From Methanosarcina sp. (GTDB lineage: Archaea; Halobacteriota; Methanosarcinia; Methanosarcinales; Methanosarcinaceae): DNA of 42,533 nt. The notes under the pieces were generated by a model. The model saw only the letters and a list, made by a program, of their open reading frames with translations. It was not told where the DNA came from and searched no databases. Below, in pieces: positions 3,539-38,230 of this stretch (position 1 is its first letter; the number at the start of each line of letters is the position of its first letter). Location: positions 1-42,533 of the forward strand of contig NZ_JAQUVZ010000032.1 in the NCBI RefSeq assembly GCF_028693135.1, given 5' to 3'. Both the position numbers and the translations under genes were made by a program.

Positions 3539-4222
3539 TCAAAAAGCTCCTTCAGTGATTTTTCCATCCTTTAGCTTTACCACCCTGTCCGCAGTCCTGG
3601 CCATTTCAGGGTCATGGGTAGTAACAACAAAACTTACTCCTTGCTCCAGGTTGATTTTTCTCATAAGGTCCGTTATCTTTTTTCCGGTCTCGGAATCAAG
3701 GTTTCCTGTAGGTTCGTCTGCCAGAATAAGCCTGGGGCTGTTTGCAAGTGCCCTTGCTATGGCAACCCTTTGCTGTTCTCCACCTGATAACTCGGAGGGC
3801 AGGTGATGCATCCTGTCCCCTAACCCGACAAGGTCAAGAAGCTCGTTTGCTCTCTGTTTTTGTTGGGGACGGGAGACCCTGTTGAAGTACATGGGATAGC
3901 AGATGTTCTCCAGGGCAGTCATTGTAGAGATCAGGTTAAAAGCCTGGAAAACAAAACCTATTGTCTGCCTGTGCAGCCGGACAAGACTGGAAGAATTCCT
4001 GTAGTCAACTTCAGTGCCCTCGATGAAAACCCTGCCCGATGTGGGCTGGTCCAGACAGCCAACAATGTTAAGCAGGGTAGACTTTCCCGAGCCTGAGGGC
4101 CCCATGAAGGAAACAAAATCTCCCTCTTCAATCTTCACATTTATTCCCCTGAGGGCTTCCACGCGCAGCCCTGAATCGAAGGTGTAACACTTTGATAAGT
4201 CTCTGGTTTCAACGATAGTCAT
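3539..4222 (-). CDS. MacB/LolD-type ABC transporter ATP-binding protein
   Basis: A 227-residue ABC ATPase. It shows Walker A GPSGSGKST (residues 41-49), Q-loop 'GFVFQAFNLI', signature LSGGEQQRVAIARAL, Walker B 'LILADEPTGNLD' and H-loop 'TTHD'. The 'LDQPTSG' and 'DEPTGNLD' wording is typical of the MacB/LolD/FtsE group, which works with FtsX-like permeases. I start it at the ATG at 4222, preceded by GGAAAGGGATTGG; an upstream in-frame TTG (4252) lacks family support. It is the last gene of the minus-strand run 7017 to 3539, after two DUF3344 genes. No permease is adjacent. The best partner in the window is the FtsX-like permease at 13852-15093, also next to a DUF3344 gene. Confidence 0.9.
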   Translation of the reverse strand: MTIVETRDLSKCYTFDSGLRVEALRGINVKIEEGDFVSFMGPSGSGKSTLLNIVGCLDQPTSGRVFIEGTEVDYRNSSSLVRLHRQTIGFVFQAFNLISTMTALENICYPMYFNRVSRPQQKQRANELLDLVGLGDRMHHLPSELSGGEQQRVAIARALANSPRLILADEPTGNLDSETGKKITDLMRKINLEQGVSFVVTTHDPEMARTADRVVKLKDGKITEGAF

Positions 4223-4256
4223 TTCCAATCCCTTTCCTGATCCCTTCTGCAAACAG

Positions 4257-5240
4257 TCAGCTGCCTCCCTCTAGAGTTTCAGGCTTTTTAAATTCAAGTA
4301 CAAGTATTTCATTTGTTACCAGAAGGTAATCCCCATTATCCTGAATACTGGCAAAATTCTCCGCAGATTCCAGATAAGCCCCCACAGGTCTCTCATCTAG
4401 AGCAACCTGGACAGTTTCGTTTGTCTGGTATATGTCCTTCCAGCTTTTTCCCCCCCCAAACAGGAGCTTTATGAGATCTCCAATGACCGGAATACTCTCG
4501 GTTTTCTCGTTAAAGAAAAGCCTGTTCCGGGCTCCTGCGCCTGAACTGTAGCCCCCGGAAGGAGAGACTGTTATCAGGCGTGCATCTGCAACATTCTCAG
4601 AGTCAATATCCCCCTCAAAGTAAGCGGTCGTTGTGGCCATTTCGGGATCGATCCCGTATTCGGCATACAGCATGTCGCAGCCTTCGTTAATCCAGTATTC
4701 GATCACCGGTAACTCTTGACCTTCATAAACGAGCAGAAGCCCTATGCTCTGCACGCAAAAGGTGCTTCCGTCCTCGGCTGTATTCACAAGTGAGATAGAA
4801 TAGTTGCCTGGTTCGGAAATTTCCTCGGTCAGGTCATAAGCATGCGTGCCTGAAAAAAAGTCGTACCTGGATACAAAGCCCTTTGTGTCCGTATACATCT
4901 GTCCTCCCTTAAGAGGCACAACTGTTCCCGAATTTTCAAGAGAGGCATTAAATTCCGGATAGATGCCTTCAAGCCCTTTTTTACTCCAGACCCAGTAAAC
5001 GTAAGCCTTTGCAACCTTTATGGAACTCCCGGCAGGGGGTTCGACACTAAAGTTTACCTGATAACTTTCATTATATTCAAGCTCCCCGCTGTACCTGCTG
5101 TCCCCCAGAGAAAAGTCAAGAGCTCCGTGGTGTCCGTCATGGAGGACAGTCTGCAGAGGTTTGTCTCCAGCATATGAAGCCGAAGCCGGGGTGATGAGCA
5201 GCAGGAGGTTAATTAAAATCGCAACATTTCTCAAATTCAT
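4257..5240 (-). CDS. DUF3344 surface protein (type B)
   Basis: A secreted protein of about 327 residues with an N-terminal hydrophobic signal ending near 'TPASASYAG', followed by a DUF3344 body. The visible family pattern includes 'LGDSRYSGELEYNESYQVNF', the aromatic strand 'KAYVYWVWSKKG', 'GLLLVYEG', 'IEYWINEG' and the closing 'GDYLLVTNEILVLE'. No C-terminal anchor is seen. I choose the ATG at 5240 because GAGG lies at a proper distance upstream; a start at 5261 is possible. It overlaps the 3' end of the preceding gene by 32 nt, so translation is probably coupled, and the ABC ATPase follows after 34 nt. Its sequence is closest in pattern to 7555-8853. Function unknown; an extracellular binding or scaffold role is inferred. 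Confidence 0.75.
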   Translation of the reverse strand: MNLRNVAILINLLLLITPASASYAGDKPLQTVLHDGHHGALDFSLGDSRYSGELEYNESYQVNFSVEPPAGSSIKVAKAYVYWVWSKKGLEGIYPEFNASLENSGTVVPLKGGQMYTDTKGFVSRYDFFSGTHAYDLTEEISEPGNYSISLVNTAEDGSTFCVQSIGLLLVYEGQELPVIEYWINEGCDMLYAEYGIDPEMATTTAYFEGDIDSENVADARLITVSPSGGYSSGAGARNRLFFNEKTESIPVIGDLIKLLFGGGKSWKDIYQTNETVQVALDERPVGAYLESAENFASIQDNGDYLLVTNEILVLEFKKPETLEGGS

Positions 5241-7017
5241 TGTTATCCTCATCCGACTCAATTATGTCATTATGCTCGTCTACCTTCACGCTGAGGGTAT
5301 GCTCACCTTTCAGAGCGTTAACTCTTATCTCATTCTCAATCGAGGCATGCCCTGCCAGTTCAGGGATATTCAGGACCGTAACACTTTTCCCATCAAGATA
5401 GAGGTTTACGTCAAAGTCCAGGGCTGAAGCTTCTCCGCTATTTATAAGCGTTATCGGAATAGAGTAAGCCGTTTTTTCTGCTGTCCGGGTTTCCTCAACA
5501 CAGCCGCTAAAAGCCGCTATCATGAGCACCGCCAGTAAAAGCAGGAGAATAGGTTTTTTTCTCCGGGCTCCAAAAAGAGATAAGAAAGAGAGACAGATTA
5601 GCGAAGCCGATGCGGTCTCTTCCTGAGCCTCGAGTTTCACGGGTTCTCCGAGGGAAACCGAAAGTTCGGGCTTTGACCTGACACTGACATTTAATGTACA
5701 GGCATTATTTTCCTTCTCCAACTCTTTTATTTCGGCTTCGGGGTCCACGGAGAGTTCAAGCAGGTGCTCCCCTTCGACTGCAGGCCATGAGAATGTGGAC
5801 ATGTACACTCCGGAAGCTTCCATCAGGACAGGGAAAGTTAAAACCTCACTTCCATCTATCCGGAAACTTACCGTACAGTTTTCTTCGCAGATTCCTCCGG
5901 GATTGTTTATTGTAAAGGAAATTTCTGCCATTTTTTCATCAACCAGTTCCTGTTTCGAGATTTTCATTTCAGGGTAAAGATCAGGTAGTAAGGAAGCTGT
6001 ACTGTCAGAAGTCAGGACCAGGGCTGCCAGGACAGGGTGCAGGTAGTCCTCTCCTTCCTGGATACTGATTTCCCCGTCCCCGTCCAGGTCAAGCCCTCTC
6101 AAAAAAGATACGGAATTACGGGGTCCGGAATTACTGGCCTGCAAGTAATCGAGCACGTCAAAATGTTCTATATCGAAGTAGCTGGAAGAAAAACCCTCAT
6201 TTCCACAGGCATCAAAGCTCACCTCATTGGCAACGTCCCTTGCTTTTCCACCATAGCTCTCAGACAGGTACTCAGGGGACACTCCAGGCATTTCTCCGTT
6301 GAATTCCAGATAATCAGGCAGGTCTTTTGACCCGGTAAGATATACTACCGAAAGTTTGGCGGCCTCTATGCTGCTTAGAGCCTTTCCTGAGCTGAAATAG
6401 ACGTCTTCCCGGTCGTTGACATTTGCCGTGTTTCCACTCCAGCCGTTTCCATGAAGGTTTATGTTCCCGCTCAGGAGCTGGTAGGAAACAATGGGCGCTT
6501 TTGAGTCTTCACAGGCTGCAGCAAGCACTGCGCCGTAGACTCTCCCGTCCAGCCTGTTCCCTGGCTCGCCGCTGCTTGTAAAGATCTCCACTATATTTTC
6601 CCCGGTTTTAGTAATGTTACTTATGTCATAGGAAACCCAGTAAACCCCATTCCCTGCACAGTACACATCCTCGTTTTCGTCATTGACTCCGGCAAGCTGC
6701 ATCTGTTCAAGCCTTTGCCCATTAAACTCAGGCCGGACCCAGCCTTCATAGTTTTCAGTGCCTCCCCAAATTCCTATGTACAGGTGAGCCCAGCGGAGAG
6801 TGCCTTCTGGCACGTCAAATTCCTGAGAGTAAGGGGAAAAAGAAAGCCCGTGTCCTCCATCTATGTAGACCTCTCCCCTGAATGTGCCCTGAGCATCCGG
6901 AGCAAAGGGTATGCCCTCATACGAGTATATGGCTCCGGCAGGAGGGATTGAGAGTAGAAATGAGAGCAGGAGGATTAATAGTACGGTTATCTTTACAGGA
7001 TCTATTTTCATAGCCAT
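5209..7017 (-). CDS. DUF3344-CARDB surface protein (type A) with internal lipoprotein-like signal
   Basis: 602 residues. The signal peptide is about residues 8-29. The DUF3344 body (about 30-340) contains 'RGEVYIDGGHG' (47-57), a calcium-type loop DLDGDGEISIQE (310-321) and 'YLHPVLAALV'. A first CARDB-like beta domain follows (about 346-447). Then come a hydrophobic stretch (469-482), the basic cluster RRKK (485-488), a second hydrophobic stretch (489-504) and a lipobox-like 'AAFSGC' ending at C506. A second CARDB-like domain (about 512-596) closes the protein. The middle looks like a C-terminal membrane anchor joined in frame to a lipoprotein signal, as if two proteins were fused. It is first in a minus-strand operon with 4257-5240 and the ABC ATPase. 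Function unknown. Confidence 0.75.
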   Translation of the reverse strand: MAMKIDPVKITVLLILLLSFLLSIPPAGAIYSYEGIPFAPDAQGTFRGEVYIDGGHGLSFSPYSQEFDVPEGTLRWAHLYIGIWGGTENYEGWVRPEFNGQRLEQMQLAGVNDENEDVYCAGNGVYWVSYDISNITKTGENIVEIFTSSGEPGNRLDGRVYGAVLAAACEDSKAPIVSYQLLSGNINLHGNGWSGNTANVNDREDVYFSSGKALSSIEAAKLSVVYLTGSKDLPDYLEFNGEMPGVSPEYLSESYGGKARDVANEVSFDACGNEGFSSSYFDIEHFDVLDYLQASNSGPRNSVSFLRGLDLDGDGEISIQEGEDYLHPVLAALVLTSDSTASLLPDLYPEMKISKQELVDEKMAEISFTINNPGGICEENCTVSFRIDGSEVLTFPVLMEASGVYMSTFSWPAVEGEHLLELSVDPEAEIKELEKENNACTLNVSVRSKPELSVSLGEPVKLEAQEETASASLICLSFLSLFGARRKKPILLLLLAVLMIAAFSGCVEETRTAEKTAYSIPITLINSGEASALDFDVNLYLDGKSVTVLNIPELAGHASIENEIRVNALKGEHTLSVKVDEHNDIIESDEDNNEFEKCCDFN

Positions 7018-7554
7018 TCACTTTCTTACCAGAGTGAAATTTGAGTTTAAGGGGAAGCTCAGGCTTTCTCTGGTTTTTTATTTAGATAAATTCCTCTACG
7101 TGAAGTGTAACTTTCCGGGTAAATCTCACACCATTAAACAATTACAGCGAAGTGAAGGTTATTAAATATTACTATTTTTCTTTTTTGTATGAAATTTTGT
7201 ATATGCAGTTTGGATTGAACTAAGAAACTCAAAATTGCTTTGGGGTATTCCATAGTAAACCGCAGAGCATTCAACTTAAACGTGATATGAAACTCTGTAA
7301 TTAGTTTCACTGAGCCTGTATATGTTCAACTTATTCCAATATTTCATGGGATTCTTCTATGAGCTTATTCAGTTGAACTGTGGACCTGAAGCTGGATGAA
7401 AGTGATCATAAATAGAATAATAGTAACAATTTATGTTATAATATATTTACAAATACTTATTTTTTAAAAGAATTTATATATTCAGAACCTATTATCTGTT
7501 TACTAATTAAAATTGTTATAAAAGAATCTCAGTGACTTTGCAGGCGGGAAAAAT
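7018..7554. promoter_or_regulatory. Divergent promoter region between two DUF3344 genes
   Basis: 537 bp with no gene. It separates divergent type A (5209-7017) and type B (7555-8853) DUF3344 genes. A TATA box TTTATATA (7473-7480) would start the rightward transcript near 7503, giving a ~50-nt leader. An 8-bp inverted repeat GTTCAACT/AGTTGAAC (about 7328-7335 and 7369-7376) is a possible operator. Nothing else was recognised. Confidence 0.4.
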
Positions 7555-8853
7555 ATGCAGGCAGGAAGCATGGAGCAGAAAGAGAACCGAAGGATGGCTT
7601 ATGGGATAAAAAAGGATCTGGAAATAAATAAGGAGTTTAAAGCAAAAAACGGACATTATGAAGGAAAAGCAAAAAACAGGCATAAAGGCCGAAGGGAAAA
7701 AACCCGCAGGGTCGGGAATATACTCTGTCTGGCGGCGGGACTATGTTGCCTGATAACAGTATTGTGCTGCCTGCTGGTCGCACCTGCCCTTGCCCAGGCT
7801 CCTGAGAATAATGGCTATGTGGCAGATAAACCTCTTGAAGTTTACAGCCATGATATGGTTCAGGGAGGACTTACCTATACGGTAGGGAACAGCTATTACA
7901 GTGGAAAGATCTACCCCGGAGATGTATATTCTGTGAGCCACAATGTCAACCTGCCGGAAGGGGCAACCGTGAAACTTGCAAGGCTCTATGTCTACTGGGC
8001 CTGGAGTGCCGAAGGGGTTACAGGCAGGTACCCTGAGCTGAACCTGAGCTTTAACGGGGAAGAGCTTGAACCTGAGCGGGAGTACAGCGACAGAAAAGGC
8101 TGGGGTATTTATGATTACCCCACAGGCACCTGGGCTTATGATGTGAGTGCTTACGTCCCCGGTTCTGGCACCTTTAGCACGGATATTAAAAATAAAGGCC
8201 CCGGGGCGTCTTATGTCTGCTTTAACGGGGCAGGTCTGCTTATCGTTTATATGGACCCGAACGGGAAATATATCGAATACTGGGTCGGTGAGGGAGCTGA
8301 CGAACTCAATTCTCAGGTGGACGAAAACGGAAACTCGCTTTACTATGCTACCTCAAACCAGACGATATGTGAATTGCTCATGCCCACCCTGCAGCTCCCT
8401 GTCCGCAGCGCTACTCTCTGGACGGTCACTCAGTCCGGGAACTGGGAGGATAATACCCTTCTGGTTAATGAGGAAAAGCTCTCCGGAATCTGCAATGGCA
8501 AACCTTACCCTGACCTGGATATTGATGTAAGGGAAATCACGGGCAGCCTGAAATCCGGAGAAAATTCCATTCTTCTCCAGGCTGTCGGGGATTATGTGAC
8601 GCCCTCAGGAGCTTTCCTTGTGCTTGAAAATGATTCACTGGCAGAAGAAGCACAGGCTTCCACAGGGAAGACGTCGGGGAATCCGGAAGAAACATATATA
8701 ACTCCGGAAGCCTCTGGCACAGAAACTTCAGACACAGAAAGTTCCGGAACTGAAGCAGAAAAAGCTCCAGGATTCGAATTTATTTCTACTTTTGTCCTTT
8801 TAACAGGGGGAAAAATAGCTTCAGGGCACCGAAAGCAGAAAGGTCGGAAATAA
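7555..8853 (+). CDS. DUF3344 surface protein (type B) with degenerate PGF-like C-terminus
   Basis: 432 residues. A long, basic N-terminus (about 50 residues, rich in Lys/Arg) precedes the hydrophobic signal at 53-80 ending 'APALAQA', so the true start may be a later Met (residue 6, 14). The DUF3344 body includes 'VGNSYYSGKIYPGDVYSV', 'RLYVYWAWSAEGVTGRYPEL', 'GLLIVYMDPNGKYIEYWVGEG' and 'GDYVTPSGAFLVLEN'. A Ser/Thr/Glu-rich linker (about 360-402) leads to 'APGFEFISTFVLLTGG' and a basic tail. This looks like a PGF-CTERM archaeosortase signal, though the hydrophobic part is short and broken by a Lys. It stands alone, convergent with the EcfT gene 30 bp away. Function unknown; probably anchored at the cell surface. 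Confidence 0.75.
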   Translation: MQAGSMEQKENRRMAYGIKKDLEINKEFKAKNGHYEGKAKNRHKGRREKTRRVGNILCLAAGLCCLITVLCCLLVAPALAQAPENNGYVADKPLEVYSHDMVQGGLTYTVGNSYYSGKIYPGDVYSVSHNVNLPEGATVKLARLYVYWAWSAEGVTGRYPELNLSFNGEELEPEREYSDRKGWGIYDYPTGTWAYDVSAYVPGSGTFSTDIKNKGPGASYVCFNGAGLLIVYMDPNGKYIEYWVGEGADELNSQVDENGNSLYYATSNQTICELLMPTLQLPVRSATLWTVTQSGNWEDNTLLVNEEKLSGICNGKPYPDLDIDVREITGSLKSGENSILLQAVGDYVTPSGAFLVLENDSLAEEAQASTGKTSGNPEETYITPEASGTETSDTESSGTEAEKAPGFEFISTFVLLTGGKIASGHRKQKGRK

Positions 8854-8883
8854 CAGGTTCCTTTTTGCAGGGGGCATTCTTTA

Positions 8884-9747
8884 TCAAACCGGGACTGTAC
8901 CCCCGAACCCTGCATAACTCAGATAGATTCCTCCTGCCGTAAAAAGGACTGTATATGTTAGAAAAAGGTAATCGTTCCTTTTCAGCCTGAGTTCGTTTAC
9001 GTAGGTCCTGTGCCTGTTTGCCCGAAACCCCCGGGTGTCGGCAGCTACTGCGAGTTTTCGTCCTGCACGGAGTATATTAACCACGAGGGGGACAAGGGTG
9101 TATTTCAGAGCTTTTGCTTTCGTTCGGACCCCACCTTTTAACTCAAGCCCTCTTGCCTGCATCGCATTGAGGATCAGGTCGCTTTCTTCGAGCATTGTGG
9201 GGGCAAAACTAACTGCAGAAGAGAGCATGAATGCAATTTCGTAGGGAAGGCCCACCCTGTAATTTTTCCCACCGAGTTTTATTTCAAAAAAGCGGACAAA
9301 AGCGGTGATCAGCCTGGAAGGGTGGCTTGTGGCAAGGACCAGCATTGCAGCGCTCAGGGATGTCATAAAACGGAAAGCCTGATACAGCCCGTAGACGGCC
9401 CCGTCCGCATAGAAATATACTCCTCCTGTTAGCGGGCCCACCAGGGGGAAGGAAGGAGGGAGGAGAGTTAACAGCGGGTCTCTTGCCCAGTAATAGAAAA
9501 GGGCCTGCGAGAGTATAAAACCCAGCCCAATACTCCCGAAGACAATGAGCATTGCTTTTATCCTGCTTTTCGAGGGCCTCAGGATGAACCAGAAAGGCAG
9601 GGTTGAGGCGAATAGTGCTACCAGCAGATAAGGAGTTCCGAGTACGACACTCAGGACCGAAATCCCGAAAAGCCAGAGCAGTTTTACTCTCGGGTCCAGC
9701 CTGTGAAGCAGGCTGTCTTTTTGTTCATAGCGAAAAAGCCACTTCAA
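8884..9747 (-). CDS. ecfT: ECF transporter T component (CbiQ/EcfT family)
   Basis: A 287-residue integral membrane protein of the energy-coupling factor T family. The N-terminal 'SLLHRLDPRVKLLWLF' is the typical EcfT opening. Several membrane helices follow, and the two cytoplasmic coupling motifs are present: 'MQARGLELKGG' and 'AADTRGFRANR' (the second has T-R-G in place of A-R-G). Such proteins transmit ATP hydrolysis from the paired ATPases to a substrate-binding S component. The fused ATPases start 110 bp away on the opposite strand (9857-11701), and an S-component candidate is at 11698-12789. Substrate unknown. Confidence 0.88.
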   Translation of the reverse strand: MKWLFRYEQKDSLLHRLDPRVKLLWLFGISVLSVVLGTPYLLVALFASTLPFWFILRPSKSRIKAMLIVFGSIGLGFILSQALFYYWARDPLLTLLPPSFPLVGPLTGGVYFYADGAVYGLYQAFRFMTSLSAAMLVLATSHPSRLITAFVRFFEIKLGGKNYRVGLPYEIAFMLSSAVSFAPTMLEESDLILNAMQARGLELKGGVRTKAKALKYTLVPLVVNILRAGRKLAVAADTRGFRANRHRTYVNELRLKRNDYLFLTYTVLFTAGGIYLSYAGFGGTVPV

Positions 9748-9856
9748 ACCTCAAATCCTCCGTCCAGGTTTTCATACAAAAGATGATAATCGTCAAACTA
9801 TTTCTTACTTTTCATAATGATTTTAAACTCAAAGGTGTAAGAAACAGAACGATAGT

Positions 9857-11701
9857 ATGGACCAAATAACAGACACCCCTCCACAAGTCAGGCTTGAAAA
9901 ACTCACATACAGCTACCCATATTCGGATTCCCAGGCTCTTTCGGATGTGAATCTTGAACTCAAAAAAGGAGAATTCGTGCTCCTGGTAGGCCCAAGCGGC
10001 TGTGGAAAAAGTACTCTTGTACGCTGCCTTAACAGGCTGGTCCCTGAAATTTCGGGAGGCAGCTTTTCAGGGCGCGTCCTGCTCCGGGGAAAAGACCTCG
10101 AGCACGAAAAAGTCCACAGGCTTGCCCTTGAAGTGGGGATGGTGTTCCAGAACCCTGAAACCCAGCTGTTCTCCCTGACAGTGGGTGAAGACCTTGCCTT
10201 CGGGCCTGAAAACCTCGGGCTGCCCCGGCAAGAAGTCAGGTCCCGCGTGGAAACAGTGCTTAAAGAGGTAGGGCTGGAAAGTTTGAGGGACCATTTTATC
10301 TTCACGCTTTCAGGAGGTGAAAAACAGAGGACCGCAATCGGAGGAAACCTGGCAATGCAGCCGGAAATCCTGGTCCTTGACGAACCGACCTCGGACCTGG
10401 ACCCTGCCGGCACCCGGGAGGTGCTTGAGCTACTCAGGCGGCTGAATGCGGAAAAACAGACCACTCTCATCCTGATTGAACATAAGCTCGATGCCGTTTT
10501 TGAAATGGCAGACCGCATGCTTGTTATGGACGAAGGTAGGCTCATCCTTGACGGAAAACCTTTTGAAATCCTGTGTCGGGAAGAAGAAAAACTCCGATAC
10601 CTCGGGATCCATCCTCCCCAGCTCACCGAGATTGCCGGCTTTCTGGGCTTGGCCTCTGAAACTTCAAATGTCCCTGCCTATGAAACTCTCCTGAAACGTC
10701 TGACTGAACTTCTGCAGGCCTCTGAGGTAGAAAGCCAGCTCGGAAGCCGGGAAGGGGCAAAATTTGAAATTCCCGATTCTATTCTGCAGCCTCCGGAAAG
10801 CTTTCCCCATGTCCGGATCGAGAACCTCTGCTACAGGCATGAGGACGGTTCGGAAGCCTTTGAAAACCTCAACCTTGAAATCAAACAGGGGGAATTTCTT
10901 GCCCTGCTCGGGCACAATGGTGCGGGAAAGACAACCCTTGCAGGCCACCTTATAGGATTTTGCAGGCCTGCATCCGGAAGAGTCCTCCTTAATGGAAAAG
11001 ACATAAGCAGGTACTCCACAGCTCAGCTTTCAAAGCAGGTAGGCTACCTTTTCCAGAACCCGGACTCGCAGATCTTTACAGATAGCGTGTTTGAAGAAGT
11101 CCGTTTCGGGCTCGAGAACCTGGGAATGCCCGAAGAGGAAATCAAAAGGCTGGCAAATTCGGCCCTGGAAATGATGGAACTTTCGGCTTACAAAAACAGG
11201 CACCCTCATGCCCTTTCAAGAGGACAGCGCCAGCGTCTGGCAGTAGCCTCCATTCTTGCCCTTGAGCCGGACCTGCTTGTCCTGGACGAGCCTACCACAG
11301 GGCAGGACAGGGGGCACATCCGCAAGTTCCTGGATAAGATTCGGGAGCTTAACAGGCTCGGGAAAACGGTGATTCTCATAACCCATGACATGGAGCTTGC
11401 AGCGGAGTATGCGGAGAGGGTTGTCGTGATAAAGCAGGGACAAATCCTGCTGGAAGGCCCGACCGCAGGGGTATTTTCAAGCCCTGAAGAGCTGGGTGCA
11501 GCCGGGCTTATCCCTCCGCTCCCTGCAAGGCTTGCCCTGGACCTCAGGAAACAGGGAATTGACATCCCCCGGCTGCTTACTGTTTCCGAACTGAAAAGCT
11601 TCCTCCGGGTTCGCTGTCCTGGACTTCCGGTTTGCAGGAATACGGAAAAAGAGGAAATTACTATAGAAAAAGAAGAAGGAGAAAGGGCAAGCCTCTTTTA
11701 A
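9857..11701 (+). CDS. ECF transporter fused double ATPase (EcfA-EcfA')
   Basis: 614 residues with two complete ABC domains in one chain. Domain 1 has Walker A GPSGCGKST (45-53), Q-loop 'MVFQNPETQLFSLTV', signature 'LSGGEKQR' and Walker B 'LVLDEPTSDLD'. Domain 2 has Walker A GHNGAGKTT (352-360), Q-loop 'YLFQNPDSQIFTDSV', a signature variant 'LSRGQRQRLAVA' and Walker B 'LVLDEPTTGQD'. The 'FQNPexQlf' wording is typical of CbiO/EcfA ATPases. It is divergent from the T component and convergent with the S-like gene, whose stop overlaps its own by 3-4 nt. In other ECF systems A and A' are usually separate; the fusion also occurs in the second ECF operon of this window. Confidence 0.9.
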   Translation: MDQITDTPPQVRLEKLTYSYPYSDSQALSDVNLELKKGEFVLLVGPSGCGKSTLVRCLNRLVPEISGGSFSGRVLLRGKDLEHEKVHRLALEVGMVFQNPETQLFSLTVGEDLAFGPENLGLPRQEVRSRVETVLKEVGLESLRDHFIFTLSGGEKQRTAIGGNLAMQPEILVLDEPTSDLDPAGTREVLELLRRLNAEKQTTLILIEHKLDAVFEMADRMLVMDEGRLILDGKPFEILCREEEKLRYLGIHPPQLTEIAGFLGLASETSNVPAYETLLKRLTELLQASEVESQLGSREGAKFEIPDSILQPPESFPHVRIENLCYRHEDGSEAFENLNLEIKQGEFLALLGHNGAGKTTLAGHLIGFCRPASGRVLLNGKDISRYSTAQLSKQVGYLFQNPDSQIFTDSVFEEVRFGLENLGMPEEEIKRLANSALEMMELSAYKNRHPHALSRGQRQRLAVASILALEPDLLVLDEPTTGQDRGHIRKFLDKIRELNRLGKTVILITHDMELAAEYAERVVVIKQGQILLEGPTAGVFSSPEELGAAGLIPPLPARLALDLRKQGIDIPRLLTVSELKSFLRVRCPGLPVCRNTEKEEITIEKEEGERASLF

Positions 11702-12789
11702 AGCCTTGCTCCGCTCATTTTTACAGCCGTATCGTAACCAAGCAGCCCTCCTATGAGCCCCCCCGCACACGCGAATGCGAGCTGAAGTCCTATATACCAG
11801 GGCGCATAGGAGATTTTCCACTCAACAGGAGCATAGAGCAGGTAAAAAACAAGGGTTGAGACCATACCTCTTGATATGCCGTAGATTACGGCGGTCAGGC
11901 GCCTGTCTGCATAATCCATCCCGAACAGGATGACCAGGAGGTCAACAACAACCCCTTCGGCAAGGTAAAAGCCCAGCCACATTATATGGGAACCCCAGAC
12001 AACCATGCTGATTAGCAGGACACAGGTAAAGAGCAGGGTTGCAGTGCCGGGCTTTCGGACCAGCTGCAGGGCCACCACCATCAGGACAACGGTAGGAATT
12101 GCAATGACCAGCCCGTCAAACCAGCCCAGGTTGATGAGCTTGCTCAGGTACCGGAACACAACGGCAATAACAGCGGCAAGGAGTGCTATCGTTATCAGGT
12201 CAACGGTTGAAAAGAGGTCAAGGACTCCGGAGTGTTTTATTGCAGCTAAAATGCCGACAAAAAGCAGGAGGCTTGCCAGGATCGTAAAATAAGTCAGCCA
12301 GGAGGGCGGGGGGATGAGGCTGACCTTATGTTCGCTTTTCTGCTCCCCTCCGGGGTAGACTGCATGAATCGTGAACGTGACCTGTTTTTTAAACTCAACG
12401 GAAGCAGGAGGTTTTACGTCAAGAAGGAGGCTTGCACTTTGTCCGGGAGCCAGTTTCCCTATTTCAGCCGTAATTTTCTGGCCTTCTTTTATTATGAGAT
12501 ACGGCTGGGGAGAGATGCTGGTTTCCAGGCTTTCCGGGACTTCGATGAGGACAGTTATGTTGTATAAGGGCTCAGTTCCAGGATTCTCAAGGTTTACCCG
12601 GGCTCTTTCCCAGGAATGCCCCGCTACAAGGACGTCAGGAGCCAGGTCTTTGTCAAGGGGAATCTCCAGGCTGACTTCGAGGGGGGTGGCAGCTGAGCCT
12701 GAAACTGGTTCTGATGCAGAAACTCCGGGAGCCCAGGAAGCTGCCAGGATAAGCGCAAGCATTAATGCGAGAATCCGTCCGTATTTCAT
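11698..12789 (-). CDS. Candidate ECF S component (YkoE-like) with N-terminal extracytoplasmic domain
   Basis: 363 residues. A signal peptide (about 1-25) is followed by a soluble beta-rich domain (about 36-160) of the NEW3/CARDB kind: 'RARVNLENPGTEPLYNITVLIEVP' strands and 'PGQSASLLLDVKPP'. Then come about six to seven membrane helices (from about residue 169). The membrane part has 'LVRKPGTATLL' and 'YLAEGVVVDLLVILFG', which resemble the 'RKPGAA ... G..aElvF' pattern of YkoE-type S components, and ends with the Gly-rich helix 'GGLIGGLLGYD'. With A and T genes adjacent, I infer it is the substrate-binding subunit. A signal peptide plus exposed domain on an S component is unusual. It lies downstream of a DUF3344 gene and the FtsX-like permease on the same strand. 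Confidence 0.65.
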   Translation of the reverse strand: MKYGRILALMLALILAASWAPGVSASEPVSGSAATPLEVSLEIPLDKDLAPDVLVAGHSWERARVNLENPGTEPLYNITVLIEVPESLETSISPQPYLIIKEGQKITAEIGKLAPGQSASLLLDVKPPASVEFKKQVTFTIHAVYPGGEQKSEHKVSLIPPPSWLTYFTILASLLLFVGILAAIKHSGVLDLFSTVDLITIALLAAVIAVVFRYLSKLINLGWFDGLVIAIPTVVLMVVALQLVRKPGTATLLFTCVLLISMVVWGSHIMWLGFYLAEGVVVDLLVILFGMDYADRRLTAVIYGISRGMVSTLVFYLLYAPVEWKISYAPWYIGLQLAFACAGGLIGGLLGYDTAVKMSGARL

Positions 12790-12880
12790 GTTTTACCTCT
12801 TTTCATCTATTGCTTTTGAATTCAGGTCAGAAGAAATCCTTTTTTCTCAAACCTTCTCCCCAAATCTTTCTCCTCAAACC

Positions 12881-13816
12881 TCATCTCTTTCTGAACCTCA
12901 GAATAACCGCCAGGCAGGCAAGAAGAGAGACAACAATTACCGAAAATGGGACCTGCCCCCCTTTTGCGGTTTTTTGCTCATGGAGCTTGAGATATTCGCT
13001 GTCCGATTCCGATTCGGAAACAAGGACTGCAACACATGGATGGAGATAGCCTTCATCGCCCCGCTCGAAGCAGAGGATGCTTTCCGTACCTTTCGGGGAA
13101 ACTGAAACCGAATACAGGTCAAAGTACTTGCCCTGCGAGGAATTCCCCACATCGTTTCCGATGTTCACTGAATCGAAATAGAGTTCGTCCCGTTCTCCTT
13201 CGGTGCCTGCCACAAGTAGGGTATGGAGGCTTGCATTTTTCCCGGGGGATGTGCCTTTAAAGGTGCTTGTCACACTGTCTTTTTTATTCGTATAGGTAAG
13301 GGCATAGTTGCCTTCGTTGATCCAGAACCTGACCGGAGGCAGAGAACTGTTTTCGGAAACGGCAGCGAGGGTGATGCCGTAGGGCCCGCCTCCAGGGTTT
13401 TCTGATAGGACAGAGACTTCATTTAACCCGGCACGGAGGGAAGTATTATTGGCATCAAGGCAGTAGAGGGCTGTACCCCAGGCTGAAACATAATCCGGCT
13501 CCTGTTTTATAGCGAGTTTTTTCCCGTTGACTGTTACCTGGATACCGTCCCCGCTGTCATAGTTCCAGACCGGCACATAAAGCCTAGCATACCTTACCTC
13601 TCCGGGGGGCAGTTCGAAATACTGGAGGTAAGGGTTTTCTCCGGTATACCCGTGCCCGCCGTTGACATATACTTCTCCCCTGACAACTCCTTCTGCTATT
13701 GTATAGGGAGGGATGCCGTCTCCCTGCCAGCCCCCATTTCCCGAAAAGAAGGGAAGCAGGAACAGCAGTCCGACTCCAAGAAGCCCTGCTATTAAGATCT
13801 TGTTTCCTATATGCAA
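12881..13816 (-). CDS. DUF3344 surface protein (type A)
   Basis: 311 residues. An N-terminal hydrophobic segment (about 7-26) and a C-terminal membrane helix followed by 'RFRKR' suggest a protein anchored at one or both ends with the body outside. The DUF3344 body has 'VRGEVYVNGGHGYTGE', 'RYARLYVPVWNYD', 'GITLAAVSENSSLPPVRFWINEG', and 'DEGYLHPCVAVLVSES', which matches 'EDYLHPVLAALV' in 5209-7017. This makes it the short type A paralogue, without CARDB domains. It lies 35 nt downstream of the FtsX-like permease and 91 nt before the S-like gene on the same strand, so the three are probably one operon. Function unknown. Confidence 0.75.
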   Translation of the reverse strand: MHIGNKILIAGLLGVGLLFLLPFFSGNGGWQGDGIPPYTIAEGVVRGEVYVNGGHGYTGENPYLQYFELPPGEVRYARLYVPVWNYDSGDGIQVTVNGKKLAIKQEPDYVSAWGTALYCLDANNTSLRAGLNEVSVLSENPGGGPYGITLAAVSENSSLPPVRFWINEGNYALTYTNKKDSVTSTFKGTSPGKNASLHTLLVAGTEGERDELYFDSVNIGNDVGNSSQGKYFDLYSVSVSPKGTESILCFERGDEGYLHPCVAVLVSESESDSEYLKLHEQKTAKGGQVPFSVIVVSLLACLAVILRFRKR

Positions 13817-13851
13817 GGTAGTGTCTCCTGAATAAACTGAATGTCTCCCTT

Positions 13852-15042
13852 TTAGAGCTGCCTTAAAGCCCTGACCGGGTCCAGTTTTGAGGCCCTCCAG
13901 GCAGGATAGAGCCCTGAAAGCTCGGATACGAGTAAGGATACCAGAATTCCGGCTGCAAGAATCTTGAAGTTTAAGGCGGTCAGGTGTTCGATATTTCCTA
14001 TTTCAAGCCTTGACATTAGCAGGGACCTTCCTACCTTGTCTATGAGGGCTGCAAAAAGAATGCCAAAAAGGTCTCCTAAAACCCCTCCAATGGTTCCTAT
14101 AAACAGGCATTCGGCTAAAAACATCCGCAAGATGTCAGATTCCGAAGCTCCGAGAGCTTTTGAAATCCCGATTTCCCGGGTCCGTTCGTAGACCGAGACT
14201 ACCATTGTGTTGACCACCATCAAGCCGCCTACAAGCAGGGAAATACTTGAGAAAAAGGCAAGGACAAGGGTCACCCCGTTCATGATCCTGTTGACCGAGT
14301 CGATTTCGTCCTGGGCACTTGAAGTGGAAAGTCCCAGTTTTTCGACCTGCTCTCTTGTTTCACGGACCAGGGACGAACTCTCCACCTTTATCAGGACTCC
14401 GTCATAGTATTCCTTTTTGCTGAGTTCTTTTGCATATTCAAGCCTCATGAAGGCCCCTGAATCTATTTCGTTTCCTGCAGGCTTCAGATAGCCCACAGGA
14501 GTGAAGCTTATTTCCCTATCAAGAGGCCTCCCGTCTTCTCCGTAAAGGCGCAGCCTGGCTGTTATCGGGGTTCCTATTCTGGCCCCGTCTATTTTTTCCA
14601 GTTTTTCCCACAGATCACTTCCAAGGACGATCTGGTCCTGCCCGCTGTCAAACCAGCTCCCTCCGGCAAGTTCAAGCTCATTTGCAGTTCTGTAATCCTC
14701 CTGGACGCCGAACAATTCTAAATAGGTACCCGAAGGGCTGACATAGGCATCCTTTACGTAAGGACAGACCACTTCCTCATATTCCTTTATTCCCTCTATT
14801 TTTGAGTCACTTATAAGGACAAGCCCATTTTCTCTGAGCCCGGGAGATACTTCAATTAAGGTCAGGTCCCGGGACTTCTGGACCTCTTCGACTGCATTGA
14901 TACGAAGGCCTTCTCCAAACGAGACTACGGCTACTACCGTTGCCACGCCGATAGCGATTCCAAGGAGAATAAGCAGGGTTCTGAGCTTTTTAAGGCGCAA
15001 CTGTCGTATTGCCATTGCGAACTCTTCAATCAAACCGTTCAC
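13852..15042 (-). CDS. FtsX/MacB-type ABC transporter permease
   Basis: A permease of about 396 residues with the MacB layout: one N-terminal membrane helix after 'AIRQLRLKKLRTLLILLGI', a ~220-residue extracytoplasmic MacB_PCD-like domain, then three C-terminal helices with the FtsX signature 'YERTREIGISKALGAS' and 'YPAWRASKLDPVRALRQL'. The frame is open from 15093. I favour the GTG at 15042, preceded by GGAAAAAGGGA; an ATG at 15015 is also possible. No ATPase is adjacent. The MacB-type ATPase at 3539-4222 carries a similar pre-start sequence (GGAAAGGGATTGG) and is the likely partner. First gene of a minus-strand operon with a DUF3344 protein and the S-like protein. MacB-family pumps commonly move lipids, peptides or envelope proteins rather than import nutrients. 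Confidence 0.85.
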   Translation of the reverse strand: MNGLIEEFAMAIRQLRLKKLRTLLILLGIAIGVATVVAVVSFGEGLRINAVEEVQKSRDLTLIEVSPGLRENGLVLISDSKIEGIKEYEEVVCPYVKDAYVSPSGTYLELFGVQEDYRTANELELAGGSWFDSGQDQIVLGSDLWEKLEKIDGARIGTPITARLRLYGEDGRPLDREISFTPVGYLKPAGNEIDSGAFMRLEYAKELSKKEYYDGVLIKVESSSLVRETREQVEKLGLSTSSAQDEIDSVNRIMNGVTLVLAFFSSISLLVGGLMVVNTMVVSVYERTREIGISKALGASESDILRMFLAECLFIGTIGGVLGDLFGILFAALIDKVGRSLLMSRLEIGNIEHLTALNFKILAAGILVSLLVSELSGLYPAWRASKLDPVRALRQL

Positions 15043-15093
15043 CAATCCCTTTTTCCAGTTCCTGCCAAGGGTGCAGGAGCCATGTCCATGCAT

Positions 15094-16627: not shown

Positions 16628-16670
16628 GCCTTTGCCTGTACGATTCCAAACCCTGGAATCTCAGAAAGAA

Positions 16671-16755
16671 CCCTTAAAAATGTTAAAATTCCCTTAAAAA
16701 CGTTAAAATTCCATTAAATACTTTAAAATTCCCTTAAAAACGTTAAAATTCCATG
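16671..16755. repeat. 20-bp tandem repeat, about 4.3 copies
   Basis: Units of CCCTTAAAAACGTTAAAATT at 16671, 16691, 16711 and 16731 (third copy diverged), with a partial fifth. It lies 43 bp after the DUF2117 stop. The unit itself is partly palindromic (AACGTT). Confidence 0.85.
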
Positions 16756-17144
16756 AAAATCTCTATAAAATATCCTTCTGCCCTGTAGAAATCAAGATTT
16801 TTCCGGATTACCGCGAGCCTGGGGGTGGAAAGGAATAGAATAAAGTTTTAAGAAGATTGTGGTTAATATTTTCTAAATAATTAACATAAAACACGTACTA
16901 TATTAAATGATAATATGTAATATTTTATAATATGGAAAACAAAAACAAATGCTTTTAATATAAGAATCTCGAGATGTGTGATATTTAAAAATAAATTATG
17001 GAACTAAAATAAATTACAGAATTACTGAAAATACATTAAAATCACCTGAAGCTCAATTTAAGATATAGAATCAGCATGAAAACAAAATAATTTTGAATTG
17101 CAGTCCGATCATAAATATGGGCCAGGAAATATTGAGGTTTGCGA
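16756..17144. other. AT-rich intergenic region
   Basis: No gene seen. It contains several TATA-like stretches and short inverted repeats around 16900-16940 (AATATGTAATATTTTATAAT). It is likely the promoter region of the surface protein gene starting at 17145. Confidence 0.3.
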
Positions 17145-35122: not shown

Positions 35123-35180
35123 GTGGTATTTATATACTCAGGAACGTTCTCCTGAAAACTGATGTAGGAAGATGGTTTTA

Positions 35181-35705
35181 ATGAAATCTCAGGATATTGC
35201 TATTATTGGAATTTTGCTTGCAGTCGGCGCAATCGTACGCTATTTATCCCTTGTTATCCCGGGACCCATAGTCTCGAATCTCGTAATAGCCTTTTACTGT
35301 CTTGCAATTATCCTTGTCGTACCCAAATTCACGGAAGTTATTGGGATAGGGATTGTAGCAGGCATCGTATGTGCCCTTCTCAGCCATTCCATTTTCCCAC
35401 CTGCAAACCTTATCAGCGAACCAATAGGGGCAGTCACATGCCTGTTCACATATAAAGCTCTCAGTAACAAGCTGTCAATCTCTCCGGCTCTTTCAACCCT
35501 GCTAGGGACTCTTGCCAGCGGGACAAGCTTTGTAATTGTTGCAATTCTTATGGTTGCCCCTACAATCCTTTCCAAGTTCCCCACTATGGGAGCCTTCATA
35601 GCCACTATTATCCCTATTGTCGTATTAACTGCAATCGCTAACGCAGTTATTGTCCAGATACTCTATGTTCCTGCTTCAAAAGTACTTGCCCGGGGGAAAG
35701 CATAA
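35181..35705 (+). CDS. ECF transporter S component
   Basis: About 174 residues with five to six membrane helices and no soluble domain, the normal S-component size. The opening 'IAIIGILLAVGAIVRYLSLVIPGP' and the segment 'IGIGIVAGIVCALLSHSIFPPANLISEPIGAVTCLF' have the pattern of vitamin or amino-acid S components; the wording recalls TrpP-like proteins, though this is weak. I take the ATG at 35181 (GGAAG nine bases upstream); the ATG at 35172 is possible. It begins an operon with the fused ATPases after 3 nt and the T component. The substrate is not known. Confidence 0.7.
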   Translation: MKSQDIAIIGILLAVGAIVRYLSLVIPGPIVSNLVIAFYCLAIILVVPKFTEVIGIGIVAGIVCALLSHSIFPPANLISEPIGAVTCLFTYKALSNKLSISPALSTLLGTLASGTSFVIVAILMVAPTILSKFPTMGAFIATIIPIVVLTAIANAVIVQILYVPASKVLARGKA

Positions 35706-35708
35706 AGC

Positions 35709-37181
35709 ATGATCGAACTCAGGAACTTCTCGTATACCTATGGCACAGCTGGAACCCCAGCTCTGGATAGCATCAACCTCAAAATCCCGGACGGTGAACT
35801 GCTCCTTGTCACTGGACACAGCGCAGCAGGAAAAACAACGCTTGCCTTTGCAATGGCAGGGATTTTCCACCATGAAATCGGGGGGCGGATCGAAGGAGAT
35901 CTCTCTTTCAAAGGAAAGGATATCAGAGGCTTTGACGGCATGAAGGAACTGAGCCGGCATATGGGAATGGTTTTTGATGATGCTGAGTCCCAGCTTATCT
36001 TCACAACCGTCGAAGAAGAAATCCGCTCAGGGCTCGAAAACCGCTTCCACTCCGAAGCTGAAATAGGGCGCAGGCTAAAAGAGGTAATGGAACTCTGTGA
36101 AATCAGCCACCTGAAACACCGGGCTCCCCACACCCTGTCGGGAGGACAGAAGCAGAAAGTTGCCCTTGCAGCAACCCTTGCCCTGGATACGGAAGTCCTG
36201 ATTCTTGACGAAGCTACAGCCGAACTGGATACAAAAGCCGTAAGAAAAGTTTTTTCCATCCTGAAGCGTTTAAAAGAAGCCGGAAAGACGATCATAATCG
36301 TCGACCACAACATAGATGACTTCCTGGAAATAGGGGATCGAGTCGTGCTTCTTGAAAAGGGCAAAATAAAGGCCATTAAAAGCCCCTCGGACTTTAAAGC
36401 AACCTTTCACACACATGAGGAAAGTACAACAAGCCTTCCCCTTTCAAAAAATGATGGACAGCCGATTATTTCCGTAAAGAAACTAACCCAGCGTTATGGG
36501 GAAGTCCTGGCGCTCGATAACATTGACCTTGATATCTACCCCGGGGAGCTCGTCGCCATCCTGGGGGAAAACGGCTCGGGCAAGACTACCCTTGTGAAAC
36601 ATTTCAACGGCCTTCTGCGCCCTTACTCCGGAAACGTTACCGTGAAGGGGCTCGATGCCTCCATGGTTCCCATAAACGAGCTAGTGAAGCACACAGGCCT
36701 GGTCTTCCAGAACCCGGATAACATGCTCTTTGAAGATACCGTTGAAGCTGAAATCAATTTTGGGTTGAATAATATTGGAGTGAAAGGGCCTGAAGCAGCA
36801 AGGGCAATTCTCCATTCTCTGGAGCTCGTAAACCTTGGTGAAAAGCAGAAAGTCTTCCCCCGCAACCTGAGCCGGGGGGAGAGGCAGAGGCTGGCTGTTG
36901 CCTGCGTAGTTGCAATGAAGCCCGAACTGTTAGTGCTCGACGAGCCCACAACAGGCCTGGATGCCGAAGAGTCAGACCGGATGATGCAGCTCATGCGAAA
37001 GCTCCAGCAGGAAGGCCATACCATAGTCATGGTGACTCATAACCTGCAGATAGTAAGAGACCATGTCGAAAGGGTCATTCGTATGGAGTCCGGAAAAATT
37101 GTGGAAAATTCGGTTAACAGGAAATTTTCCAGTAAAGAATGTGTCAGTAAAGAATGTGTTAGAGGAGGCACATGCGCATGA
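35709..37181 (+). CDS. ECF transporter fused double ATPase, N-domain with altered Q-loop
   Basis: 490 residues with two ABC domains. Domain 1 has Walker A GHSAAGKTT (36-44), signature 'LSGGQKQKVALA' and Walker B 'LILDEATAELD' (Ala for the usual Pro). Its Q-loop reads 'MVFDDAESQLI' with Asp90 where 'FQNPE' has Gln. Domain 2 has Walker A GENGSGKTT, a normal Q-loop 'LVFQNPDNMLFEDTV', the signature variant 'LSRGERQRLAVA' and Walker B 'LVLDEPTTGLD'. The C-terminus carries a doubled 'SKECV'. It lies between the S and T genes; its 3' end overlaps the T gene start by 10 nt. The two domains may be unequal in catalysis. Confidence 0.9.
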   Translation: MIELRNFSYTYGTAGTPALDSINLKIPDGELLLVTGHSAAGKTTLAFAMAGIFHHEIGGRIEGDLSFKGKDIRGFDGMKELSRHMGMVFDDAESQLIFTTVEEEIRSGLENRFHSEAEIGRRLKEVMELCEISHLKHRAPHTLSGGQKQKVALAATLALDTEVLILDEATAELDTKAVRKVFSILKRLKEAGKTIIIVDHNIDDFLEIGDRVVLLEKGKIKAIKSPSDFKATFHTHEESTTSLPLSKNDGQPIISVKKLTQRYGEVLALDNIDLDIYPGELVAILGENGSGKTTLVKHFNGLLRPYSGNVTVKGLDASMVPINELVKHTGLVFQNPDNMLFEDTVEAEINFGLNNIGVKGPEAARAILHSLELVNLGEKQKVFPRNLSRGERQRLAVACVVAMKPELLVLDEPTTGLDAEESDRMMQLMRKLQQEGHTIVMVTHNLQIVRDHVERVIRMESGKIVENSVNRKFSSKECVSKECVRGGTCA

Positions 37182-37963
37182 AAGAGATTATGCAGTACAT
37201 AAACAGGGACAGTTTTTTACACCGCATGAACCCGCTTTCGAAGATCGCTGCAGTAACGGGCATAATAGCCCTTGGCGTGTTCACAACAAACCCTGAAGTT
37301 CTGGCCGTTATGGTGCTTGGGATTTTTCTGGCTTCCTTAGGAGCCGGGCTCCAGCAGGAACTCCTCAAGCAGCTGAAACTCCTGGTCTTCCTGAGCGTTA
37401 CCCTGATCCTGCTCACCGTTTTCACCCTGAAAAGCGGGGAAACTGTCGGCTACCTGATCCCTGCCGGTATCCTTACAGCCGGAGGGCTTGTCCCGGTCAC
37501 AACCGGAGCTCTGGACTTTGGAACCGTCCTTTCCCTCCGTTTCTTTGCAATGCTTTTTGCCTTCCAGCTCCTGGTGGTCACCACAAAGCCAAGTGACCTT
37601 ATGAAAGCCCTCCTGGCAATCCATATCCCTGTAGACTATGTGCTCATGTTCGTAATCGCCCTCCGTTTCATCCCTAGCCTCCAGATAGAAGGTCAGCGCA
37701 TCCATGAAGCCCAGCTCGCAAGGGGCTACAACCCCGGGAAAGGCCTCCGCGGAAAAATTATGAGTGTAAAGCCGATCCTGGTGCCCCTGGTCGCAAATTC
37801 CCTTGGAAGGACCCAGGTGCTCGGCCTGACCATGGACATGCGAGGCTACAGGAGTCGGCAGAGCGTTGAGAAAAATCAGCTTACCTGGAATAAGACCGAT
37901 ATAGCAGCTGTGGGCTGTGTGGCTGTTATGGGGCTTGGAGTGGTGCTTGGCGGGTTTATGTAA
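37172..37963 (+). CDS. ecfT: ECF transporter T component
   Basis: 263 residues of the CbiQ/EcfT family. The opening 'SFLHRMNPLSKIAAVTGI' is typical, five or so membrane helices follow, and both coupling motifs are present: 'AQLARGYNPGKGLRG' and 'TMDMRGYRSRQS'. GGAGG sits just before the ATG inside the end of the ATPase gene, so translation is coupled. Last gene of the S-A-A-T operon. Confidence 0.9.
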   Translation: MRMKEIMQYINRDSFLHRMNPLSKIAAVTGIIALGVFTTNPEVLAVMVLGIFLASLGAGLQQELLKQLKLLVFLSVTLILLTVFTLKSGETVGYLIPAGILTAGGLVPVTTGALDFGTVLSLRFFAMLFAFQLLVVTTKPSDLMKALLAIHIPVDYVLMFVIALRFIPSLQIEGQRIHEAQLARGYNPGKGLRGKIMSVKPILVPLVANSLGRTQVLGLTMDMRGYRSRQSVEKNQLTWNKTDIAAVGCVAVMGLGVVLGGFM

Positions 37964-38159: not shown

Positions 38160-38230
38160 ATGATCAAAATGTGATCAAATATCTTCAAAAGATGTTATCA
38201 AACATCTCTTTGGGTGTAACCCTACACCCT
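38160..38230 (-). ncRNA. Three hairpins at the 3' end of tnpB, probable omega-RNA / IS right end
   Basis: On the minus strand the tnpB 3' end and the bases after it form three successive hairpins: GGGTGTA/TACACCC (38212-38218 with 38223-38229, 4-nt loop), AGATGTT/AACATCT (38190-38196 with 38201-38207, 4-nt loop) and TGATCA/TGATCA (38161-38166 with 38172-38177). In IS200/IS605 elements the right end is structured and gives rise to the guide RNA of TnpB. The exact guide boundary cannot be set by eye. Confidence 0.55.

Follow-up and report, generated by a model that had tools for sequence, protein, structure and literature searches.

Predicted partnerships of DUF3344 surface proteins with an ECF importer and a MacB-type transporter in archaea

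The window analyzed here, the whole stretch of 42,533 nucleotides of Methanosarcina sp. DNA (RefSeq contig NZ_JAQUVZ010000032.1; contig C46 of the 4.2-Mb genome of a Methanosarcina relative), encodes four proteins with the DUF3344 domain (PF11824), denoted D1 (gene at 4257), D2 (5209), D3 (7555), and D4 (12881), interspersed with components of two ATP-binding cassette (ABC) transporters, namely, an energy-coupling factor (ECF) importer and a MacB-type ATPase-permease pair (Table 1). Comparison with related loci indicates that DUF3344 proteins are, very probably, fixed partners of these transporters. One module consists of EcfT, D4, and an S-protein, usually with the fused ECF ATPases (EcfAA) in divergent orientation, and the other consists of D2, D1, the MacB ATPase, and its permease. 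The proposal of an earlier note on this DNA that DUF3344 proteins are functional partners of the transporters is supported by synteny, gene overlaps, dedicated orthologue groups, and phyletic co-occurrence; its notion of one uptake/export system gives way to two separable modules, each of which is also found without the other. Overall, we read the locus, with a probability of roughly 0.5, as a putative surface-coupled uptake apparatus made of two modules, with cobalt or nickel (Co/Ni), a corrinoid, or a metallo-tetrapyrrole as the ligand.

Loci were retrieved by homology to the S-protein (32 GTDB contigs) and to DUF3344, and were mapped by searches of open reading frames (ORFs) with hidden Markov models. 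The same contig was fetched twice for some loci (for example, L010/L036, L014/L035, L017/L040, and L009/L030), and the adjacency counts, over 38 permease and 37 S-protein loci, exclude such duplicates of the S-protein scan. In the maximum likelihood tree of 87 DUF3344 domains, 19 D4 proteins, all encoded beside the S-protein, group together (support 100/100), as do 18 D1 proteins, all encoded ahead of the MacB ATPase (100/99), and 18 D2 proteins (100/95); a D4-like protein of Helarchaeota lies outside the D4 clade, on a long branch. In this tree, D1, D2, and D4 each form a distinct orthologue group with good support, which argues that each transporter has its own dedicated DUF3344 partner.

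The genes for D2, D1, the MacB ATPase, and the permease are contiguous in 26 of the 38 distinct permease loci. Eleven of the 12 non-contiguous loci belong to Methanosarcinaceae, with the permease and ATPase genes apart and some of the contigs cut, and the remaining one is an extra paralogue in L065. Across the first locus set, the D2 and D1 genes overlap by 44-53 bases, the gap between D1 and the ATPase gene is 0-33 bases, and the ATPase and permease genes overlap by 17-20 bases. Because the latter two genes overlap in anaerobic methanotrophic archaea of group 2 (ANME-2) and in genome G026, and are adjacent in Methanomicrobiales, the split of the MacB pair is, judging from gene order, a Methanosarcinaceae rearrangement; the split transporter described in the earlier note is real in the window but, the L065 paralogue apart, is a form of this family only. 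Across 29 genomes, scores against the permease subfamily profile fall sharply into two groups, with 15 hits reaching 524-610 bits and the next best only 177, and the subfamily is present in 14 of 15 genomes with DUF3344 and in 0 of 14 without it (Fisher 2e-7, with relatives being non-independent samples). All but one of the 15 hits sit at DUF3344 genes; in the exception, G117, the D2/D1 pair is located elsewhere in the genome. In a set of 12 complete genomes, DUF3344 has a MacB_PCD gene within 5 kb in 10 (null 0.9). The MacB pair of the window is not an equivalog of MacB, LolCDE, or FtsEX, every NCBIfam equivalog score being far under the cut-off. In genome G357 (L110, 2362-4180), the gene for the MacB ATPase is broken into two pieces separated by about 1.1 kb, and because of this break the module may be inactive there.

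D2 has a composite architecture, with DUF3344-CARDB followed by an anchor helix, a basic loop, a second signal-peptide-like helix, and a last CARDB domain. The end of the second helix carries a lipobox-like motif in Methanosarcinales and ANME-2 and an AxA-like motif in Methanomicrobiales, and the hairpin is conserved. As a side observation, this layout resembles a fusion of two secreted proteins that are, perhaps, cleaved apart.

In the ECF module, D4 is encoded directly beside the S-protein in 36 of the 37 loci, including that of a Firmicutes metagenome-assembled genome (MAG; L057), with 23 pairs overlapping or at most 10 bases apart; the single exception is the Helarchaeota MAG L059, with the order D1-like, EcfAA, D4-like, EcfT, S. 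In 29 of the 37, EcfT is encoded no more than 2.5 kb away and on the same strand; most of the others are on cut contigs or belong to Methanosarcina whose locus is divided. A strong S-protein hit was obtained in 10 of 88 genomes with DUF3344 and in 0 of 305 without it, and the protein was not found on the viral contigs searched. The window S-protein itself scores 14.9 bits against PF09819 (cut-off 25.2), but 25 of 29 homologues match this family (ABC_cobalt, YkoE type; best E 3.6e-7), which is compatible with its earlier labeling as S-like, and 15 of 29 match NEW3 (PF10633). In its structural model (mean pLDDT 78, pTM 0.57), a signal peptide precedes a beta domain (residues ~38-159), and the membrane part is helical. 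By homology, the S-protein appears to be distantly related to YkoE/ABC_cobalt and to carry an additional, predicted extracellular domain. A sequence search for relatives of solved structure found none; the listed fold matches in PDB cover the beta domain only and include the copper-binding YcnI; being too generic, these matches were dropped as a ligand clue. The window EcfAA exceeds the TIGR04520/TIGR04521 cut-offs in two stretches, corresponding to two ECF-type ATPase domains. The D4 model (pLDDT 84) shows a signal or transmembrane (TM) segment, a beta-rich body without a global PDB match that could hint at a ligand, and a C-terminal TM segment; the histidine of its GGHG motif is invariant, and the HP motif is near-invariant. 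A related YkoE-type ECF system that lacks both D4 and the beta domain is present in L119 (7193-19083), in a run with ChlD-like and FecBCD-type genes.

The D2-D1-MacB module is widely present without ECF genes, and many ANME-2 and other loci have EcfT-D4-S but no MacB; the two are joined only in Methanosarcinaceae and some ANME-2. Both modules stand together, unsplit, in G026 (L010/L036) and several ANME-2 contigs, and the arrangement in the window is therefore a rearranged form. Methanosarcina acetivorans C2A also has the complete locus, at about 2,096,300 to 2,108,000 of its genome. A single combined operon is ruled out in the window because the genes are on both strands, with EcfAA and D3 on the plus strand and permease-D4-S, EcfT, and D2-D1-ATPase on the minus strand. 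In the 12 complete genomes, only 2 of 51 EcfT genes lie within 15 kb of DUF3344 (null 1.5), that is, there is no general enrichment, and a general DUF3344-ECF link is rejected for this set. Given the MacB_PCD enrichment and the chance level of EcfT, the DUF3344-MacB link is widespread, and the DUF3344-ECF link is lineage-restricted. The gene-neighborhood comparison suggested in the earlier note thus ties the MacB permease to DUF3344 broadly and S and EcfT in restricted lineages, but yields no general ECF linkage; the scenario in which DUF3344 genes would lie away from both transporters fails for MacB, which is near DUF3344 beyond chance, and not for EcfT, which is at chance level in the complete genomes.

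Judging by synteny, chance is excluded as the cause of the gene grouping because the arrangement is conserved across relatives. It could still be argued that DUF3344 proteins serve generally as adhesins or in the surface layer and that their genes pile up beside transporters without functional coupling. Indeed, a survey of fibrillar adhesins lists DUF3344 as an ambiguous cluster (PMC9210967), many large DUF3344 proteins are encoded far from transporters, as giant multi-domain ones often are, and a transposase gene is close to the window locus. The conserved gene order with overlaps, the dedicated orthologue clades, and the coupling of presence and absence all speak against this explanation, which we regard as very improbable; it is strongly disfavored for D1, D2, and D4 and possible for D3 and the giant proteins.

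The neighboring genes provide clues to the substrate. By unbiased coordinates, 6 of 16 CobN genes outside M. acetivorans are within 15 kb of DUF3344 (null 0.44, P ~1e-4); adding those of M. acetivorans gives 6 of 28 (null 1.0, P 0.013). The order in L108 and L160 is CobN-ChlD-(178 aa)-D2-D1-MacB; CobN is divergent from D2 in L036, and CobN/ChlD adjoin the module in L032 and L035; in the Firmicutes MAG L057, the order is MotA-DUF2149-EcfT-D4-S-EcfAA-CobN-ChlD. In loci of Methanomicrobiales type, DUF3344/MacB genes lie beside FecB/BtuF-type binding proteins, BtuC/FecCD permeases, CobN, and ChlD (L160, L163-L166) or beside a cobalamin-synthesis run (cbiL, cbiF, cbiD, and a CbiA-family gene) with cobN (L161, L162). 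In four contigs that are ANME-2 or related, NikR adjoins the MacB permease. The genome to which the window belongs has NikR on contig C82, 0.4 kb upstream of a D2-like gene, and M. acetivorans has it inside the DUF3344 cluster. Altogether, CobN/ChlD, BtuF/FecB, FecCD, CbiD, CbiM, or NikR occur in DUF3344 loci of several families and the one Firmicutes MAG, albeit not in every lineage; in the 40 random control windows of the broad neighbor tally, CobN, ChlD, and EcfT were absent, BtuC and binding proteins turned up twice each, and NikR turned up once. These clues went unseen in the earlier note. From the CobN/ChlD, cbi, BtuCDF/FecBCD, and NikR neighbors, we infer that Co/Ni, corrinoids, or another metallo-tetrapyrrole are captured at the cell surface and taken up, and a metal or tetrapyrrole substrate in general seems somewhat favored. 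MotA/ExbB-like and DUF2149 genes are directly beside DUF3344 in L057 (6997-7991) and in an archaeal genome (L074, 15104-16292), a hint that some DUF3344 systems may involve a proton-driven motor; such a motor was rejected as a regular partner, being confined to these two loci, with the M. acetivorans DUF2149 gene beside CobN and away from DUF3344.

Several points weigh against the uptake of metals or tetrapyrroles. None of the 12 CobN genes of M. acetivorans is within 15 kb of DUF3344, and NikR is near some DUF3344 loci only. The GGHG/HP histidines are kept in D4 and partly in D2 but are missing in D1 and D3, which rules out conserved metal ligands across all DUF3344 proteins. The broad neighbor tally carries some bias, as known CobN genes guided the choice of several extended windows, and related genomes are non-independent samples. 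Finally, characterized YkoE-family members handle thiamine or hydroxymethylpyrimidine. The ECF module could, accordingly, import a thiamine precursor or another vitamin in the manner of YkoEDC, with D4 as an accessory anchor and the metal genes being neighbors for other reasons; the S-protein is closest to the YkoE family, fused ATPases are also found in YkoD, and the distance between CobN and DUF3344 in M. acetivorans fits as well. Nevertheless, no thiamine genes were seen in the listed neighborhoods, the window contains no riboswitch (only two tRNAs were found there), CobN/ChlD lie beside the module in L032, L035, L036, and L057, and NikR is present in ANME-2, so that vitamin import appears unlikely.

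Under the surface-coupled uptake scenario, D3 and the giant DUF3344 proteins would bind scarce Co/Ni, a corrinoid, or another metallo-tetrapyrrole on the cell surface. The MacB pair would perform ATP-driven mechanical work via D1/D2 outside the membrane, resulting in ligand hand-over or surface-protein maturation; type VII ABC proteins are known for ATP-driven work outside the membrane. D4 and the extracellular domain of the S-protein would then receive the ligand and dock it onto the ECF importer. Entry into the cytoplasm would be the task of the ECF complex, or of a BtuCDF-type importer in the case of Methanomicrobiales, and cytoplasmic CobN/ChlD would insert or remove the metal. The hand-over role of MacB, specifically, is a tentative proposal. 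Alternatively, the MacB module might be an export or maturation machine with D1, D2, and the giant DUF3344 proteins as clients, uptake being left to the ECF or BtuCDF parts only. The MacB-type ATPase is nearest to LolD, D2 has the lipobox-like second signal, and a giant DUF3344 gene often directly follows the permease gene; D1 and D2, however, are each a single, strictly conserved orthologue and do not vary as clients would, and the same MacB loci adjoin metal importers and chelatases, which makes this alternative rather unlikely. More speculatively, and with considerable doubt, DUF3344 proteins could provide archaea that have no outer membrane with a surface-receptor system functionally comparable to TonB-dependent receptors, in which the giants would capture a metal-tetrapyrrole, MacB would mechanically drive its release via D1/D2, and a DUF3344-docked ECF or BtuCDF-type importer would take it in; if true, this would also explain what some unassigned archaeal CobN homologues serve.

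The component families are known. ECF importers are thought to capture the ligand by the membrane S-component alone; here, an ECF importer is linked genetically to an anchored surface protein of its own, its S-protein bears an extracellular domain, and proteins related to this partner are likewise linked to a MacB-type transporter. The ECF module shares a CbiQ-like T-component, fused ATPases, and an S-protein weakly matching PF09819 with YkoEDC-type systems but differs in the NEW3-like extracellular domain on S, the obligate DUF3344 neighbor, and the gene context. With CbiMNQO/NikMNQO, it shares the CbiQ-family T-component and metal-related neighbors (NikR, CobN), but there is no CbiM/CbiN, and S comes from another family. 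The MacB module shares its LolD/MacB-like ATPase and MacB_PCD/FtsX permease with MacB/LolCDE-type (type VII) ABC systems and differs from them in the distinct permease subfamily (524-610 bits versus <=177), in the fixed DUF3344 partners, and in that the archaea concerned have no outer membrane. The Bacteroidota hmu haem system with HmuS (PMC12583661) resembles the present loci in the CobN-type chelatase beside surface proteins and in the MotA/DUF2149 genes (L057 and L074) but features a TonB-dependent receptor and the haem-binding HmuY, whereas the present loci use ECF or BtuCDF importers with DUF3344. The one mention of the association with ECF that was found is a passage on the Methanoperedens plasmid HMp_v1, where the neighboring ORFs 67-75 include genes for NikR, EcfT/EcfA, and two DUF3344 proteins; the authors guessed a biotin transporter, and in that passage DUF3344 is not tied to it and no MacB module is mentioned (PMC9674854). 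Among open-licence PMC papers, no mention of DUF3344/PF11824 beyond PMC9210967 and PMC9674854, and none that ties DUF3344 to MacB or gives it a transport role, was found; the claim that the system had not been described holds in this respect, with the qualification that the combination with ECF had been mentioned in passing. The uptake scenario would give DUF3344 its first function, would suggest a Co/Ni scavenging route of S-layered methanogens and methane oxidizers, which have a large Co/Ni demand, and would bear on the role of archaeal HmuS/CobN/ChlH homologues, called unclear in PMC12583661.

Table 1. Transporter and DUF3344 genes of the window
Feature	Coordinates	Strand	Evidence
MacB/LolD-type ATPase	3539..4252	-	ABC_tran E 1e-34; closest NCBIfam LolD, MacB; beside permease in relatives
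D1, single DUF3344 domain and signal peptide; predicted MacB ATPase partner	4257..5261	-	PF11824 E 7e-72
D2, DUF3344-CARDB, internal helical hairpin, second CARDB	5209..7017	-	PF11824 E 6e-30, CARDB E 2e-39
D3, DUF3344; no fixed transporter partner established	7555..8853	+	PF11824 E 4e-66; tree
EcfT, CbiQ family	8884..9747	-	PF02361 E 1.5e-23
Fused ECF ATPases EcfA-EcfA'	9857..11701	+	Two ABC domains; TIGR04520 over cut-off
S-protein: signal peptide, predicted extracellular NEW3-like beta domain, YkoE-related membrane part	11698..12789	-	Homologue matches PF09819, PF10633; model
D4, DUF3344, N-terminal signal/TM and C-terminal TM anchor; predicted S-protein partner	12881..13816	-	PF11824 E 1.5e-22; model; tree
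MacB/FtsX-type permease, DUF3344-specific subfamily	13852..15093	-	MacB_PCD E 3e-21, FtsX E 1e-22

All nine ORFs listed in Table 1 had been called at these coordinates before and were recovered there by an ORF check and by Pfam/NCBIfam searches, which also confirm the transporter parts (LolD/MacB-like ATPase, CbiQ-type EcfT, fused ECF ATPases, and MacB_PCD/FtsX permease); four of the nine encode DUF3344 proteins, with scores of 81-243 bits against the PF11824 gathering threshold of 27.2 (Pfam). Translation of the MacB ATPase probably starts at an internal ATG near 4222. Another ECF transporter is encoded at 35172-37963; it comprises a TrpP-like S-protein, fused ATPases, and a CbiQ-type T-component but no DUF3344 and offers a natural comparator. 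An HTH-ACT-type protein encoded at 2940, which carries no metal hint, has a near-identical copy beside other DUF3344 genes in the Methanosarcina relatives L024 and L168. The window also contains a DDE transposase gene (1596-2789) inside inverted repeats (1389-1419/2860-2890), an OrfB/IS605-type (TnpB-like) gene at 38175-39419, and, just 3' of a DUF2117 gene, about five copies of the tandem 20-base repeat CCCTTAAAAACGTTAAAATT (16651-16770).

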